Source of the DNA: Armatimonadota bacterium
GTDB taxonomy: Bacteria; Armatimonadota; Fimbriimonadia; Fimbriimonadales; Fimbriimonadaceae
Direction: 5' to 3'
Assembly: GCA_016223145.1 (NCBI GenBank)
Contig: JACRPN010000020.1
Location: 1 to 64,000, forward strand
Length of the DNA: 64,000 bases
Shown: positions 31,196 to 46,898 of the stretch, piece after piece
Position numbering within the stretch: position 1 is the stretch's first letter
Layout of the letters: the number at the start of each line of letters is the position of its first letter
Program-made: the position numbers and the translations under genes
The notes under the pieces: generated by a model
The model's input: the letters and a program-made list of their open reading frames with translations, nothing else
Databases searched by the model: none
What the model was told of the DNA's origin: nothing

Positions 31196-31548
31196 TTATC
31201 CGTCACTGCTCCTTGTGTTTTTTTTGGGCTTGGGGAGCTTGCCGGAGCTTGTTCGCTCGGACGGGCCATCGAAGCTTTCCTCGTTTCCTTTCGAGACCTG
31301 CCTTTGCGCCTTCGCTTGGGCCGCGCTTCCCGCGCCTTTCCTTAGGACAGGCATAACCTGCCCTCTGGAGATTATGGACCGCCTTTAGGGGCATTTGCAA
31401 GCAAATCTGCGATTCCCCGTTGGGAAAACAGCGCAAATCGCAGGCAAACCCAGACTGGCGTACCACACTTTCGATTATCAGTAGATTTGCTTGGAACCTG
31501 AAGGGGCGCTCCTTTCACTTCACTTGTGGCTCCTCGACAGGCGCGATG
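31196..31548. other. Gene-free divergent region
   Basis: About 350 bases between the porin and metallophosphoesterase genes. It should hold the porin promoter. A T-run near 31220 and an imperfect inverted repeat (GGACAGG..CCTGCCC, ~31344-31362) are the only structure seen. Confidence 0.4.
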
Positions 31549-31554
31549 TAAGAT
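31549..31554 (+). promoter_or_regulatory. TANNNT box (TAAGAT) seven bases before the metallophosphoesterase ATG
   Basis: TAAGAT, spacer GATGGGC, ATG at 31562; no Shine-Dalgarno. Supports this ATG over the two slightly upstream ones. Confidence 0.35.
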
Positions 31555-31561
31555 GATGGGC

Positions 31562-32791
31562 ATGGAGCACTACGTGCCCACGCGGCGGTCCATTCTGCTG
31601 GGCAGTTTGGCTTTGGGGGGTCGGGTGCTGAGTTCCGGCCGACGCCACAACGCCCCCATCCTCGAGGGTTCAAGGGTTCGTTTTGGCGTTATCACCGACG
31701 TCCACCATGGCCTGGCCAACCGGACCGAGGCGCGTCTGGAGGAGTTCCTGATCGCCTGTGAAAAGCGAGAGCTCGATTTCATCATCCAGATGGGCGACTT
31801 CAACCACCCGGTCCCCGAGGCACAGGGCTTTCTCAAGCTCTGGCACTCGCACAAGGGTCAGCGATGGGGAGTGCTCGGCAACCACGATATGGACATGGGC
31901 TCCAAGAAGCAAGCCCTGGATAACTGGCAGCTCAAGAGCCGCTATTACAGCTTCGATTCAGGTTTTTTGCACTTCGTCGTGCTGGACGCGAATTTCTTCC
32001 GAGTGGAGCAAGGGAACGCGAGACTCCAGTCTCGCTCATGGAGTGCGAGTCTCCAGACTCGCGAAAGCCATCCCCGGCCTTGCGGCGTGGAATCGGATGG
32101 CGACTCAGAGAGTCGCGGACCCTATGCGAGTCTGGAGACTCGCGTTCCTTCCGGGCTTGTCCCTTACGAAAACGGCAATTGGTACCGCGGCGGCATCACG
32201 GCAAGCTGGATCGACCCCGAGCAGATCGAATGGCTGGCCTCCGATCTGAAGGCGACCCGCAAGCCCACCGTCGTTTTCGTCCACCAACCGCTCGACGACA
32301 TCTGGGAAGGCGGGTCGGTGCCCAACCGCGTCGAGGTCCGCAAGGTGCTGGAAGAGAGCGGCAAGGTCGTCGCCGTCCTGCAAGGGCACAACCACCAGGA
32401 CGCCAGCGAAACGCGCAACGGCATCCTCTATTGGCGGGTGAACAGCGCCAGCTACGCCTGGGTCGGGGAGAAATACGGCCGCATGGCGGACTACGACCGG
32501 AGCCTGTTTGCGTTTGTGGAGATTGGGGACATGGGGACGAAGGGACAAAGGGACCAGGGGACGGCGCCCTGGGAGGCGAAGGGCGAAGGACGAAGGGCGA
32601 AGGGGGTGGGTCCGGGGTCCGAGGTCCGAGGTCCGGGATCTCATCATCCCATCACTTCCTCATCCCATCATCTCCACTTCTCAGTCGAGGGCCGACGCGG
32701 CATCTTCGAGGGCGATTCACCGTTCACGCGAGGCGTGCCGAACTTCCACCGGTTTTCACCGAGCATCACAAGTGTTCGCGTTGAGATCTGA
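31562..32791 (+). CDS. Tat-exported metallophosphoesterase carrying in-frame repeat insertions
   Basis: 409 residues. Twin-arginine signal PTRRSILLGSLALGG. Calcineurin-like metal motifs: GVITDVHHG, MGDFNHP, GNHDMD, VFVHQPLDD and GHNHQDAS. Hydrolyses phosphoester bonds; substrate unknown. Two stretches look foreign to the fold: ~residues 151-200 (from EQGNARLQSRS to SLETRVPSG), encoded by four palindromes at 32018-32143, and ~320-372 (GTKGQRDQGT to HHPITSSSHH), encoded by tandem repeats at 32526-32672. Both keep the reading frame. Core motifs are intact, so the enzyme may still work. Confidence 0.85.
   Translation: MEHYVPTRRSILLGSLALGGRVLSSGRRHNAPILEGSRVRFGVITDVHHGLANRTEARLEEFLIACEKRELDFIIQMGDFNHPVPEAQGFLKLWHSHKGQRWGVLGNHDMDMGSKKQALDNWQLKSRYYSFDSGFLHFVVLDANFFRVEQGNARLQSRSWSASLQTRESHPRPCGVESDGDSESRGPYASLETRVPSGLVPYENGNWYRGGITASWIDPEQIEWLASDLKATRKPTVVFVHQPLDDIWEGGSVPNRVEVRKVLEESGKVVAVLQGHNHQDASETRNGILYWRVNSASYAWVGEKYGRMADYDRSLFAFVEIGDMGTKGQRDQGTAPWEAKGEGRRAKGVGPGSEVRGPGSHHPITSSSHHLHFSVEGRRGIFEGDSPFTRGVPNFHRFSPSITSVRVEI
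32018..32143. repeat. Cluster of four palindromes inside the metallophosphoesterase gene
   Basis: Perfect or near-perfect palindromes GCGAGACTCCAGTCTCGC (32018-32035), GCGAGTCTCCAGACTCGC (32045-32062), GCGACTCAGAGAGTCGC (32100-32116) and GCGAGTCTGGAGACTCGC (32126-32143). The second is preceded by GGAGT, the same flank as the palindromes in mtaB. Confidence 0.9.
32526..32672. repeat. Compound tandem-repeat block in the metallophosphoesterase gene
   Basis: Successive arrays: 8-base units around GGGGAC/AGGGAC (32526-32563), 7-base GGCGAAG units (32574-32601), 7-base GGTCCGA/GGTCCGG units (~32610-32637), then CATCATCC/CATCCCATC units. All in frame. Confidence 0.85.
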
Positions 32792-33440: not shown

Positions 33441-35180
33441 TTACAACCCCAACCTCCCCCACATCTCATCCACCCGCTTCTTGACATCCTCGCTCATCTT
33501 GATCAGCTTCGGGAAGTCGCGGGTGAATCCGTTTTCGCCGGGCCACTTGTGGGTGCAGTCGAACCCCAGCTTGCCGCCGAAGCCCTCGGCGAGCGATGCG
33601 TGGTCGAGCTGATCCACGGGACCCCGGCTGAACAGCGCGTCCCGCGCGGGGTCGGTGTTCGCCCCGAAGCGGAACAGCACCTCGTCCAGGTTCTGCACGT
33701 CGCAGTCCTCGTCGAACACGAAAACGTACTTCGTGAACGCCAGTCCGCCGAGGCCCCAGATGGCGTTCATCACCTTGAACGCGTGCCCCGGGTACTTCTT
33801 CTTGATCGAAACGAACGCCACGTTGTGGAAGCACGCCTCGACCGGCAGGTTCATGTCCACGATTTCGGGCACCGAAAGGCGGATCATCGGCAGGAAGATG
33901 CGCTCGACCGCCTTGCCCATCCAGCCGTCCTCCATCGGCGGCACGCCCACGATGGTTGCCGGATACACCGGGCTCGTGCGATGCGTGACGCACGTGACGT
34001 GCAGCACCGGGAAGTCCTCGGCCAGCGAGTAGTAGCCGGTGTGGTCGCCGAACGGCCCCTCCAGCCGTCGCTCGCTGGGGTCCACATAGCCCTCGATGAC
34101 GAACTCGGCGTCGGCGGGAACATGGATGTCGACGGTCTTGCATTTGACGAGCTGGGCGTTCTCCTTGCGAAGGAACCCGGCGAACATCATTTCGTCGATG
34201 CCCGGCGGCAGCGGCGCGATGGCCGAGAACGTGTAGGCCGGATCGCCTCCCAGCGCCACCGCGACCTCGATCTTCTTGCCCTGCGCGGCGGCGGCTTCCA
34301 TGTGGCGCATGCCGGTCTTGTGCATCTGCCAGTGCATGCCGCAGGTGTTCTTGTCGTAAAGCTGAATCCGGTACATGCCGACGTTGCGCTTGCCCGCAGC
34401 AGAAATGGTCTGAGGTCTGAGGTCTGAGGTCTGAGGGCCCGGACCTCGCACCTCGGACCTCGCACCTCGGACCTCCGGATCATAGGTGAACACCATCGGC
34501 AGCGTGATGAACGGACCGCCGTCCTCGGGCCAGCAGGTGAGGATCGGCAGCTTGGTGAGGTCGACGTCGTCGCCCTGCATGACGACCTCTTGGCAGATGC
34601 CGCTCCCGACGGTCTTGGGTGGGACGTTCTTGAGCTCGCCGAAGAGCTTGGGAAGCATCTTTAGGGCGTCGAGAGGACCTTTGGGAAGCTCGGGTTTGAG
34701 GAGGTGCTCGATCCGCTCGGCGTGTTCCTCGAAGTCCTCGGCCCCCAGCGCCAGCGACATGCGGCGGCGGGAGCCGAAAGCGTTGATGGCGACGGGAATG
34801 CGATAGGCGAGAGGCGAGAGGCGATTCGGTTCCTCCTCGCTTTCGCTTTTCGCTTCTCGCTTCTCGCCATGAATTGATGGCTGCCCCATCACCGCGCTTT
34901 TCGGGTTCGGTGTGCCCAGTCGGTGAGGGGGTCCGACGACGTTTTCGAAGAGGAGGGCGGGAGAATGGTTTTCAGGTTTTCGGGTTATCTGGTTGTCGGG
35001 TTTTGGGTCAGAGACCTGGCCACCTGACAACCTGAAAACCTGGCTACCCGCCTTCCCCTTCATCACCCGATCCGCGATCTCGGTGATCTCCAGATACGGG
35101 CTCACGGGCTCTTTGATGCGCTTGAGCTCGCCCTTCTCTTCGAGCGTCTTCAGGAACTGCTGATAGTCGCGGTACGCCAT
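33441..35180 (-). CDS. UbiD-family decarboxylase with three repeat-encoded insertions
   Basis: 579 residues; family members are usually ~450-520. UbiD enzymes use prenylated FMN (made by UbiX) for reversible decarboxylation of unsaturated or aromatic acids. Motifs: IPVAINAFGSRRRMSLALG, GMHWQMHKTG, SERRLEGPFGDHTGYYS (acidic catalytic residues) and PEIVDMNLPVEA. Three low-complexity insertions coincide with tandem-repeat DNA: ~residues 46-72 (35046-34968), ~105-126 (34867-34805) and ~236-258 (34475-34407). The last splits the conserved DPE..GKRNVGMYR. No ubiX is nearby; the substrate is unknown. A TACACT box lies ten bases before the ATG. Confidence 0.9.
   Translation of the reverse strand: MAYRDYQQFLKTLEEKGELKRIKEPVSPYLEITEIADRVMKGKAGSQVFRLSGGQVSDPKPDNQITRKPENHSPALLFENVVGPPHRLGTPNPKSAVMGQPSIHGEKREAKSESEEEPNRLSPLAYRIPVAINAFGSRRRMSLALGAEDFEEHAERIEHLLKPELPKGPLDALKMLPKLFGELKNVPPKTVGSGICQEVVMQGDDVDLTKLPILTCWPEDGGPFITLPMVFTYDPEVRGARSEVRGPGPQTSDLRPQTISAAGKRNVGMYRIQLYDKNTCGMHWQMHKTGMRHMEAAAAQGKKIEVAVALGGDPAYTFSAIAPLPPGIDEMMFAGFLRKENAQLVKCKTVDIHVPADAEFVIEGYVDPSERRLEGPFGDHTGYYSLAEDFPVLHVTCVTHRTSPVYPATIVGVPPMEDGWMGKAVERIFLPMIRLSVPEIVDMNLPVEACFHNVAFVSIKKKYPGHAFKVMNAIWGLGGLAFTKYVFVFDEDCDVQNLDEVLFRFGANTDPARDALFSRGPVDQLDHASLAEGFGGKLGFDCTHKWPGENGFTRDFPKLIKMSEDVKKRVDEMWGRLGL
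34407..34475. repeat. Inverted pair of heptamer arrays in ubiD
   Basis: Four perfect GGTCTGA units (34407-34434), a GGGCCC centre, then five units alternating GGACCTC and GCACCTC (34441-34475). The second array is close to the reverse complement of the first, so the block can fold into a hairpin. Confidence 0.92.
34805..34867. repeat. Inverted pair of heptamer arrays in ubiD
   Basis: AGGCGAG, AGGCGAG, AGGCGAT (34805-34825), a short spacer, then TCGCTTT/TCGCTTC-type heptamers to 34867, roughly complementary to the first arm. In frame. Confidence 0.85.
34968..35046. repeat. Inverted pair of octamer arrays in ubiD
   Basis: Five GGTTTTCA-like octamers (34968-35007), an 8-base-scale spacer, then four CCTGAAAA-like octamers (35015-35046), which are the reverse complement type. 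In frame. Confidence 0.9.
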
Positions 35181-35307: not shown

Positions 35308-38300
35308 ATGCTTCTCTGCGCCCTGCTCGTCGCCGGAGTGCTCGCGGCTCCCGCGAACCCCCAAGTGCTCTCGATCTACGCCCGGAAAGGTTCGGCGCCT
35401 ATCGCATTTGCCGCCCGAGAAGTTGTAAGCGCCCTGGCGGCGCGAGGGAAGAAAGCCGTCGTCATCAACGACTCCAAGGCGCCCGCGTGGTGCAGCATCC
35501 GGCTTGATGATGGGCCCAATGAGGGCTTTCACATCGATCGAGTCGCGGACGAATGGCTGATTGCCGGCTCGGACGAGCGAGGCGCCATGTACGGCGGCTT
35601 GGACTTAGCAGAGCAAATCCGGCTCAACGGGCCAGACAAGGTCAAGCCCAAAGGGGGTTCCCCCTCCATGCCCCTTCGAATGATCAAGTTCAACATCCCC
35701 CTGCCGGGTGTGGGCTACGCCAGCGAGGAGTCGCTGAGGAAGAACGGCTGGTTCTATGACCTGAACTACTGGCGCAAGTATCTCGAGATGATGGCGCGGA
35801 ACCGCTACAACGCCCTATCGCTCTGGTCGGCGCACCCCTACGACCGCATGCTCCGCCTCTCCAAGTACCCCGAAGCCTGCGCCCTGACCGACGAAGAGCT
35901 CGCCAAGAACCAGAAGTTCTTCCACACGCTGTTCCAGATGGCCAAGGATCACGGCGTCGATGTGTACCTGATGACCTGGAACACCCACGTCTCGCCGGCG
36001 TTCGCGGCCGCGCACAAGGTCGCCGTCAATGGGGCGGATTCTCCTCTCGTGCGGGATTACACCAAGGAGTGCGTGCGCGAGCTGCTGACGCAGTATCCCG
36101 AGATTACGGGATTCGGCACCTGCCCTGGCGAGGCGATGGGAAATCTGAACGCGGACCAGCGCATGGCGTTTATCCGCGAGACCTATTTCGAGGGGATCAG
36201 GGAGGCTGTGGAGGGAGGAAAGGGTGTTCAGGTGCTCAGGTATTCAGGTGTTCGGGAGGGAGATCAAAGAGACCTGACTCCTGACCAACTGAGCACCTCC
36301 CACCTGGCCTCCCATCCCCTTCCTGAACACCGAACACCTGATCACCCAACACCTGAAAACCCGAACACCCCGCCCCGCCCATACCCTCCCTTCATCTTGC
36401 GCTATTGGGGCGGCACTCCCGAATCCACCGACAAGATGCTCGCCGAAGCCAAGTACCCGGGGCCCGTGTACCTCGACATCAAGTTCAACGGCGAGCACAT
36501 GTACTCGTCGACGCGGCCCCACGTGCAGAACAAAAAGTGGGAGCAGATGGCGGGCAAGCGCTACAAGCTCCTCTGGCACCTGCGCAACGACGACCTTTTC
36601 ACCTTGCGCTGGGGCGACCCGGACTTCGCGCGCGAGATGCTGGGGAATGTGGTTGGCTCACCGATCCAGGGTCGAGACGCCCCTGGGACGCATGACCGGG
36701 ACGGTCATGCCACGTCCGCCGGCTTCGTCATGGGCTCCGAGATCGAGATCCCCGGCGAGGACTACATCCACACGCCCAAGGCGGCGAAGCACAAAGACTG
36801 GAAGTACGAGTTCGAGAAGCAATGGTTCAAGTGGGCGCTTTGGGGCCGTCTCGGCTACAACCTGAAGGAACCCGAGAGCACCTGGATCAGGACCTACCAA
36901 GAGCGCTTTGGCGACGAGGCCGGGCCCAAGGTCTTCGCGGTGATGAAGTCCGCCAGCAAGATCCTGCCCACCGTGACCGCCTTTCACTGGAACTACATGA
37001 ACGGCGACTGGTATCCGGAAGGCAACGTCGGCCCCTGGAACACCAGCTATGAGGTCCCGCGCCAGAACTTCCGCGACAACAGGATCTTCCACTCGGTGGA
37101 GGAGTGGGTCTGGAACAACGCGATCGACGGGAGCTATGAGGATATTCCGACATATGTGATGCGGGGTCTCTCCGGAACTCCCTCCCTTTTGAAGGGGAGG
37201 GTCGGGGTGGGGATGTCACGGAGCCGGAGACTTGGAGCAGTAGCTGCCCCCGCGCAGTCGCTGTCAGCGAATAACAGCAGGCGCATGGCGCTCACCCACC
37301 CCCCGACCCCCTCCCTCAAGAGAGGGGGCGCCCTCAGCCCCATCGAAGTGGCAAACAAACTGGAATCTTGGGCCAGCGCCTTCGACAAACTTCGCCCCAA
37401 TAACTTCTTCGATGCCGGCCATGCGAACGACAAAGAATGGGTCTGTACGATGCAAGACCTTCGGGCGGTGTCCGAGCTTGGGCACTACTACTCAGCCAAG
37501 ATCCTTGGGGCGACGTCGTACTGCCGGTTCCTGCTGACCGGCGACGAGGCGTCCCGAACCAACGCGCTCAGGCACATCACCCGGGCGCTGGCGCACTGGA
37601 AGAAGCTCGCCGCCATCGCCGACGCGCACTACATCGAGCACGAGATCTGGCTGCAGGGGCAGTTCTCGTGGGGCAAGTACACGGCTGACGCCGAGCGGGA
37701 CGTGGAGATCGTGAAGAACGCGATGCCGATACCCTCGACGGAGACAACGTGGCTTGGGTCGGAAGGAAGGAAGCGGCTTCCCACCGTCGCGATGCGACGC
37801 TTCGACAGCTCTTCGCGAAAAGAAATCGCCCCCTGGCTCCAATATCTGAGCTCCCTGCCCGTAGCGAACGTCCTTCACTTCCCTGGTTCGCCCTCCTCCG
37901 TAATGACACTAGGCAACTACAGCACAGGGCTGCTTGCTGGAACCGACTCGACATGGCGGATTACGATACGCACGCCTGGCGTACCCAATCCAGGACGCCT
38001 ACTATTCCTTACGGTGACTGGAAAGCAGGTCCACCGCATTTCACGCGGCGACTCTGAACTCTTGACATACGAATGTCAACTGAAGAGTGGCCGGAACGAT
38101 TTGACGATCACGAGATTCCCCTACTCAAGTCCGCTGTCGTTGACTTTCGCAGCAGAACCGATGCCCTGGCGTACCCCAGTCGCCGACCTCTCCGCCAAGG
38201 ACGCTTCCAAAGTCACCGCGCCGATGGTCCTTACCAAAGGCACAGCGGTCGACACTTACCTCCACATCCCCAAAGGCTCCGGGCGGGGCCTCGACCTCGC

Positions 38301-45470: not shown

Positions 45471-46898
45471 CTACTGCCTTAGGACAAGGCGTCCGTTGGC
45501 TTGGGTTGGCTCCGGCGCGAGTTCGCCGTAAAGGGTCCCGTTTCGCGCTTCGTCGAGCCGAACCCAGACGCACGTTCGGGCGATCGATGGCGGCGCTGCG
45601 AAAGCGACCTCGAGGTAGTTGTCCGTCAAACCGTGCATCAGGCCGTCGCGGTTCTCCTTGCCCTCGGCGAGCACGCGCATGGTCCGTCCCAGGAACCGCC
45701 TCGCATGCGCTTCGCCGGTGCGCTGGGTCGCTTGCTGCACGAGCACGCTCCGGCGCTGCTTCTCCTCGGGCGATACGGGATCGCCCCATTGGTCGGCGGG
45801 CGTGCCCCACCTCGGGCTAAACCGAAACACATGTCCCTTGAGGTAGCGAACCTCCTCGCAAACATGCAGGGTCGAGGCGAACCGCTCCTCGTCTTCGGTC
45901 GGGAAGCCGACCATGATGTCGGTGGTGATCGACAGGTCCGGCACTGCCTCGTAGAGCTTGTGGCAGAGCCGAATATAGTCGTCCTGCGCGTAGCGGCGGT
46001 TCATGTCCTTCAGGACTCCCGTGTCGCCGCTTTGCAGGGGGATGTGCAGGTGCGGGACGGCCAGGCCGCCCTGCATCAAGGCGACGAGCCGATCGGAAAC
46101 CTGGGGCGCCTCGATGCTGCTGATTCGAACGCGACTCATCCCCTCGATCCTGGCGATCTTCTCGACGAGGTCCTCGAAAGCGGGTCCGTCACTGCCCGAT
46201 TCCGGTCCGTAGGAACCGATCAGCACGCCCGTCAGGACCACCTCCCGATAGCCCAATTCCGCCAGGCGAGCGACTTCATCGAGGACTTCCATAGCGGGCC
46301 TTGAGCGCATGCCCGGGCGGGTGAACGGGATCGAGCAGTAGCTGCAGAACACGCTGCAACCGTCCTGAATCTTGACGGTCGCCCGGCTGCGCCCCTGAGG
46401 CGCGGCATGAACGCTTTGGGAGGCCTTTTGGGAGTGCGCGGGCTTGCCCGCGCTTTCCGTGTGCTCCGAAATGGGAGCTCCGCTGGCCATCGAGTCGAGA
46501 GGGGCCAAAGCGCGGGCTTGCCCGCGCACTCCAAGAGCCAATTCGCGCTCCAGCTCCGGAAACGCTCGGAACAGCCAGCTCAGAGTCTCCAGCTTTTCGG
46601 GGTTGGGAACCAGCACGTCGGCGCCTGCGAATGCCTCGCCCTTGTTCACCGACATCTGTGCCGCGCAACCCGTAACCACCACTTTTGCCGCCGGGTTGTA
46701 CCGTGTCGCCCTGCGCACCGTGTAGCGGCTCTTGGATTCCGCGACCGAGGTCACGCTGCACGAGTTGATGACGTACACGTCGGCCTGCCCTTCAAAGGGA
46801 ACAACCTGAAATCCGGCCCCTTCAAAGCTCTCCAGGATGCGTTGGGTCTCATACTGGTTAACCTTGCATCCAAGCGTGGTGAACGCTGCTCTCAGCAT
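45471..46898 (-). CDS. mtaB: tRNA t6A37 methylthiotransferase, with palindrome insertion
   Basis: 475 residues. N-terminal UPF0004 domain with three cluster cysteines (TLGCKVNQYE, INSCSVTSV, VVTGCAAQM), the radical-SAM motif CSVFCSYCSIPFTRPGMRSR and a C-terminal TRAM-like part (RVLAEGKENRDGLMHGLTDNY). Converts t6A37 to ms2t6A37 in ANN-decoding tRNAs using SAM and two 4Fe-4S clusters. MtaB rather than MiaB by the TLGCKVNQYET start. About 34 residues (~122-155, GVRGQARALAP to GKPAHSQ) between the two domains are encoded by a palindromic repeat at 46431-46532. A TACACT box lies 12 bases before the ATG. Confidence 0.93.
   Translation of the reverse strand: MLRAAFTTLGCKVNQYETQRILESFEGAGFQVVPFEGQADVYVINSCSVTSVAESKSRYTVRRATRYNPAAKVVVTGCAAQMSVNKGEAFAGADVLVPNPEKLETLSWLFRAFPELERELALGVRGQARALAPLDSMASGAPISEHTESAGKPAHSQKASQSVHAAPQGRSRATVKIQDGCSVFCSYCSIPFTRPGMRSRPAMEVLDEVARLAELGYREVVLTGVLIGSYGPESGSDGPAFEDLVEKIARIEGMSRVRISSIEAPQVSDRLVALMQGGLAVPHLHIPLQSGDTGVLKDMNRRYAQDDYIRLCHKLYEAVPDLSITTDIMVGFPTEDEERFASTLHVCEEVRYLKGHVFRFSPRWGTPADQWGDPVSPEEKQRRSVLVQQATQRTGEAHARRFLGRTMRVLAEGKENRDGLMHGLTDNYLEVAFAAPPSIARTCVWVRLDEARNGTLYGELAPEPTQANGRLVLRQ
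46431..46532. repeat. 102-base inverted-repeat element inside mtaB
   Basis: Starts GGAGT plus the palindrome GCGCGGGCTTGCCCGCGC (46436-46453) and ends with the same palindrome (46510-46527) plus ACTCC: 23-base terminal inverted repeats. Length 102 is exactly 34 codons, so the frame is kept. Confidence 0.92.

Follow-up and report, generated by a model that had tools for sequence, protein, structure and literature searches.

Repeats of the REP class are usually described as extragenic. REPINs and RAYTs are already known (PMC3116915, PMC2817692), and in Pseudomonas fluorescens and Stenotrophomonas (PMC3116915, PMC2817692, PMC8266576) the REP hairpins carry a conserved tetranucleotide at the 5' foot, occur as inverted pairs as well as singles, and accompany a RAYT gene that lies between inverted REPs. 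The heads given in the RAYT and REP papers cited here are GTAG/GTGG or CGTC (PMC3733652, PMC2817692). Di Nocera et al. (2013) described REPs and REP dimers that lie wholly within ORFs and add tens of codons; in O. terrae and Thioalkalivibrio the affected genes included uvrA, and different REPs were found at about the same recB site in two Xanthomonas species (PMC3733652). Rickettsia palindromic elements (RPE) are likewise palindromic repeats translated in frame as an extra protein segment.

We analysed a window of 64,000 nucleotides from an uncultured Armatimonadota bacterium, in which the gene mtaB contains a palindromic element. This element is very probably a REPIN, composed of two GGAG(T)-headed REP hairpins placed head to head, moved by a RAYT and tolerated in a linker of the protein. 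Features of the locus and related sites elsewhere are listed in the table.

Features of the mtaB locus, further copies of the element, and CCCC-type repeats in the same loops of other genera (positions without a contig prefix are those of the window)
Feature	Location	Strand	Remarks
mtaB, tRNA t6A37 methylthiotransferase	45471..46898	-	Intact ORF, 475 aa
Putative whole insertion	46428..46535	-	108 bases / 36 codons, mtaB residues 122-157, LGVRGQARALAPLDSMASGAPISEHTESAGKPAHSQ; exact ends putative
REP unit 1	46431..46453	+	GGAGT head, then 8-bp stem hairpin GCGCGGGC-TT-GCCCGCGC
Spacer between REP units	46454..46509	.	56 bases, open in mtaB frame
REP unit 2, inverted	46510..46532	-	Plus-strand end is ACTCC
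TTTGGGAG, target-like motif	46415..46422	+	12 bases before the TTTGGGAG that starts the element; like motif at one end of other copies
REPIN in mtaB	46431-46532		In frame; 102 bases between GGAGT ends
REPIN in uvrA	C5:173086-173205		In frame; 120 bases between GGAGT ends
REPIN in rhamnosidase-like ORF	C9:14813-14893		In frame; 81 bases between GGAGT ends
REPIN in esterase-like ORF	C14:146407-146487		In frame; 81 bases between GGAGT ends
REPIN in ORF without Pfam match	C20:71605-71703		In frame; 99 bases between GGAGT ends
Clearly intergenic pair	C5:83314-83405		92 bases
Seventh pair, apparently intergenic	C9:241590-241658		69 bases
CCCC-type repeat, G013	mtaB loop
CCCC-type repeat, G013	rhamnosidase loop		Few codons from the site used by the REPIN here
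CCCC-type repeat, G006	uvrA loop

Read directly from the sequence, window positions 46431-46532 hold two facing 23-base units, each made of GGAGT and an 18-base hairpin, so that the plus strand runs GGAGTGCGCGGGCTTGCCCGCGC, the spacer, GCGCGGGCTTGCCCGCGCACTCC. In both copies the two middle bases of the 18-mer are TT on the plus strand. The 23-base inverted repeats described in an earlier note on this DNA thus have the composition that was claimed, but the arms differ at these central two bases because both copies have the TT on the same strand. A repeat search found the slightly longer arms 46431-46456 and 46507-46532 to be 92% complementary. Paired, inverted and separated by a short spacer, the hairpins are able to fold into one larger hairpin, and the predicted fold of a 109-base stretch is strong (z = -6.5 on the plus strand and -7.3 on the minus strand, with none of the shuffles as stable). 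The exact 18-mer pattern occurs at 5 places (10 strand hits) in the 3.87 Mb genome, and a reversed control gave 0 hits.

The host gene was identified as MtaB by TIGR01579 (389 bits against a cut-off of 357), and its ORF runs without interruption despite the REPIN. The insert lies between the UPF0004 (residues 4-86) and Radical_SAM (176-345) domains. Repeat search, open ORF and domain matches together bear out the earlier proposal of a palindrome-ended element placed in frame in this inter-domain linker. Its proposed size of 102 bases is indeed a multiple of three and in frame, but the inserted DNA is probably about 108 bases, as judged from relatives and from other genomic copies, with which the ends of the 108-base unit agree. 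The linker spans 27-34 aa in 27 of 29 aligned relatives, which do not have the extra residues, compared to 66 aa with the insert; subtracting codons 122-157 leaves 30 aa, within the relatives' range. Only G013 and G033 depart from this, their linkers being long but of a sequence different from the REPIN; in G013 it is another palindromic repeat, CCCCACCCCCCGGCCCCCTCCCCGCAAGCGGAGAGGGGGAG, with a related copy after it. The description of the insert as a coding palindromic element is correct in that it is palindromic and supplies codons to a permissive linker, but more specifically it is a REPIN, and its hairpins flank a RAYT.

The genome-wide search for GGAGT-palindrome pairs suggested in the earlier note was carried out as a census of copies by pattern searches of the source genome, a draft assembly in 23 contigs. 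The pattern TTTGGGAGTGCGCG(A/G)GCTTGC(T/C)CGCGC gave seven head-to-head pairs, genic and intergenic, and nearly all exact units were paired. Five of the seven lie in frame within long ORFs, and their GGAGT-to-GGAGT lengths are each divisible by three. All five coding copies are read in one phase, starting LGVR(E/G)(L/Q)ARA and ending SA(S/G)K(L/P)AHSQ. In the four hosts other than mtaB, relatives align on either side of the insert and have shorter loops: 15-23 aa in 21 of 25 relatives for uvrA (66 here), 19-22 aa in all 11 for the esterase-like gene (50 here), 27-39 aa in all 8 for the uncharacterised gene (80 here), and 29-31 aa in 10 of 11 for the rhamnosidase-like gene (63 here). In these five cases the element lies wholly within ORFs, in frame, and is missing from most homologues.

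With about 17 REP units, the source genome has a low copy number for a REP family. A MAG of the same family, Armatimonadetes bacterium GL140_5 (G015, JANYLD01), contains 52 exact copies of the REP, most of which form pairs between genes, so that a dominance of coding pairs does not extend to this genome. The uvrA gene of GL140_5 (L148) has a 72-residue linker at the same loop as the REPIN-bearing one. An old shared insertion was rejected as its origin, since 64 of 500 shuffles reach its score against the REPIN, which makes the resemblance non-significant.

If each of the three phases has the same likelihood, five genes would share one by chance in about 1 of 81 cases. Together with the strong fold and with the unrelated palindromic repeats that hit the same loops in other genera (see below), the shared phase could mean that the insert is more than tolerated and was retained because it serves a purpose, whether as an extra stretch of protein or through a hairpin in the mRNA that controls mtaB. 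We consider this rather unlikely. The host proteins have no function in common, and the insert is missing from most relatives. Furthermore, the other two phases of the REP unit encode Cys and one of them is also hydrophobic (WECASLLAL), and selection against bad insertions accounts equally well for the shared phase. The REP unit has no stop codons in any of its six frames, and survival of a REPIN in mtaB would follow from this, from its frame-keeping length and from the flexibility of the inter-domain linker; the 36-residue insert may thus be tolerated with little function of its own.

The hairpins of the mtaB element also occur beside a transposase gene. The source genome contains 14 Y1_Tnp matches. 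The flanks of 13 of them were scanned, and GGAGTGCGCG hairpins stand next to one alone, C8:238043-238582. The G-type hairpin lies to one side of this gene, and the opposite side has two of the A-type. These flanking REPs are inverted; the G-type is the hairpin of the mtaB element and the A-type a variant of it. Read through, the gene scores 81.8 bits against NCBIfam REP_Tyr_transpos (NF047646; cut-off 80) and 21.8 bits against Pfam Y1_Tnp, slightly below the cut-off of 23, and has the NHYH motif. On these matches, it is classed as a RAYT, a Y1 HuH transposase of the REP-associated class. The source-genome gene (L177 1501-2040) is not intact: its frame is broken by one TGA, at a codon for Trp in most relatives, in most of which the frame is open, and so it may now be inactive.

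Relatives of this RAYT were found in 18 of 101 searched genomes, the source genome included. GGAGTGC hairpins lie on both sides of 12 of the 19 RAYT match loci in these 18 genomes, with stems that vary between genera; four relatives' loci lack an exact GGAGTGC hairpin in their vicinity, and one more is at a contig end. In total, 43 such hairpins were counted in 64 kb of RAYT loci, compared to 0 in 202 kb of control loci (mtaB, uvrA).

These findings bear on whether the repeat could instead be a coding palindromic element of the Rickettsia type, independent in origin and spread by some unknown route other than RAYT. Such an element would also be short, would form hairpins and would be read in frame, in a single phase, by genes unrelated to one another. 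This origin is improbable, however, since the same hairpins flank a RAYT, other genera show this pairing too, with stems that differ, and intergenic pairs exist in the source genome and dominate in GL140_5. That the element is a chance palindrome or an assembly artefact, for which only the draft state of the genome speaks, can be dismissed, as a chance palindrome is ruled out by the 18-mer copies against the reversed control and by the fold against shuffles, while other contigs also have copies, the five in-frame ones stand where relatives' loops are shorter, and another assembly has 52 copies.

The REPIN reading suggests how the element could have reached mtaB. Two REP hairpins, head to head around a spacer, would be mobilised as one unit, probably in single-stranded form, and the mover would be the RAYT acting as a Y1 HuH single-strand transposase. 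The surroundings of the copies are consistent with such a route. In the source genome and GL140_5 combined, 15 of 53 element ends have GGAG at a distance of 4-13 bases on the outside, whereas 2000 shuffles gave 2.5 on average and never more than 8. This outside GGAG is generally present at just one end of an element, and in nine ends it has a single fixed offset. Insertions favour sites 3' of GGGAG, and entry into mtaB would have occurred just 3' of a GGGAG-containing site. A guide and cleavage model has been described for RAYT single-strand transposition (PMC8266576). The signature fits insertion 3' of a motif resembling the element's own head, as expected for transposition of the IS200/RAYT type, in which single-strand cleavage would take place beside the hairpin. 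Base counts gave no clear sign that cleavage occurs at a CT dinucleotide right at the junction.

The most unexpected part of the results concerns the loops themselves. Three of the five REPIN-bearing loops hold unrelated CCCC-type palindromic repeats in other genera. The CCCC-type repeat is rare within a 240 kb stretch of G013, which makes coincidence unlikely unless insertion-tolerant loops are few; the observation comprises three cases, found after looking. Tentatively, it is possible that the GGAG-headed RAYT/REPIN system of Armatimonadota and unrelated palindromic repeats repeatedly enter the same few protein loops in frame, these loops being shared landing sites that lengthen proteins in one preferred phase.

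Other palindromic repeats are present in the same window. At 37180-37328 lies an inverted repeat, CCCTCCCTTTTGAAGGGGAGGG ... CCCCCTCCCTCAAGAGAGGGGG, akin to the repeat in mtaB and the rhamnosidase gene of G013 and in uvrA of G006, and repeats resembling CAGGTNTTCNGGT are clustered at 34954-35053 and at 36230-36369, where they make inverted repeats. Positions 32013-32148 hold four palindromes from a further REP-like family (GCGAGACTCCAGTCTCGC, GCGAGTCTCCAGACTCGC and related forms), placed in frame within a metallophosphoesterase-like ORF (31526-32791, plus strand). The GGAGT flank had been taken to join these palindromes with the mtaB element, but a common family was rejected: theirs are hairpins of GCGAGTCTCCAGACTCGC and its variants, copies of which lie on either side of a second Y1_Tnp gene, C13:96151. 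The two are linked only in kind, and GGAGT alone does not join families.

Compared to the REPINs of Pseudomonas fluorescens and Stenotrophomonas, the present family differs in several features. First, its head is GGAG (+T) rather than GTAG or GTGG, and its host belongs to Armatimonadota. Canonical REPs have GTAG or GTGG 0-2 nt 5' of the stem; here GGAG stands 1 nt from the stem, both in the source genome and at the relatives' RAYT genes. The element is a REPIN by its architecture and RAYT linkage, and not a canonical GTAG REP. Second, copies are few and most pairs are intragenic. Compared to the intragenic GTAG/CGTC REPs (PMC3733652), which also lie entirely inside ORFs with uvrA among the hosts, it has another head and a target-site signature, its five coding copies share one phase, and an unrelated repeat class of other genera uses some of the same loops. 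Compared to RPEs, it is linked to a RAYT and has intergenic REPINs.

As in-frame intragenic REPs, including those in uvrA, were reported in 2013 (PMC3733652), the kind is already known, and what is new is a GGAG-headed Armatimonadota variant that is mostly coding in the source genome. A text search of PMC3733652, PMC6006769 and PMC2817692 gave no occurrence of the GGAG head. The range of REP/RAYT systems thereby comes to include a GGAG head in Armatimonadota, which we did not find in the RAYT papers searched. With five of seven pairs genic, in frame and in one phase, and with hosts that include uvrA, which acts in DNA repair, and a gene for tRNA modification, the family offers a small natural collection of cases for studying how conserved proteins gain segments from non-autonomous mobile DNA.
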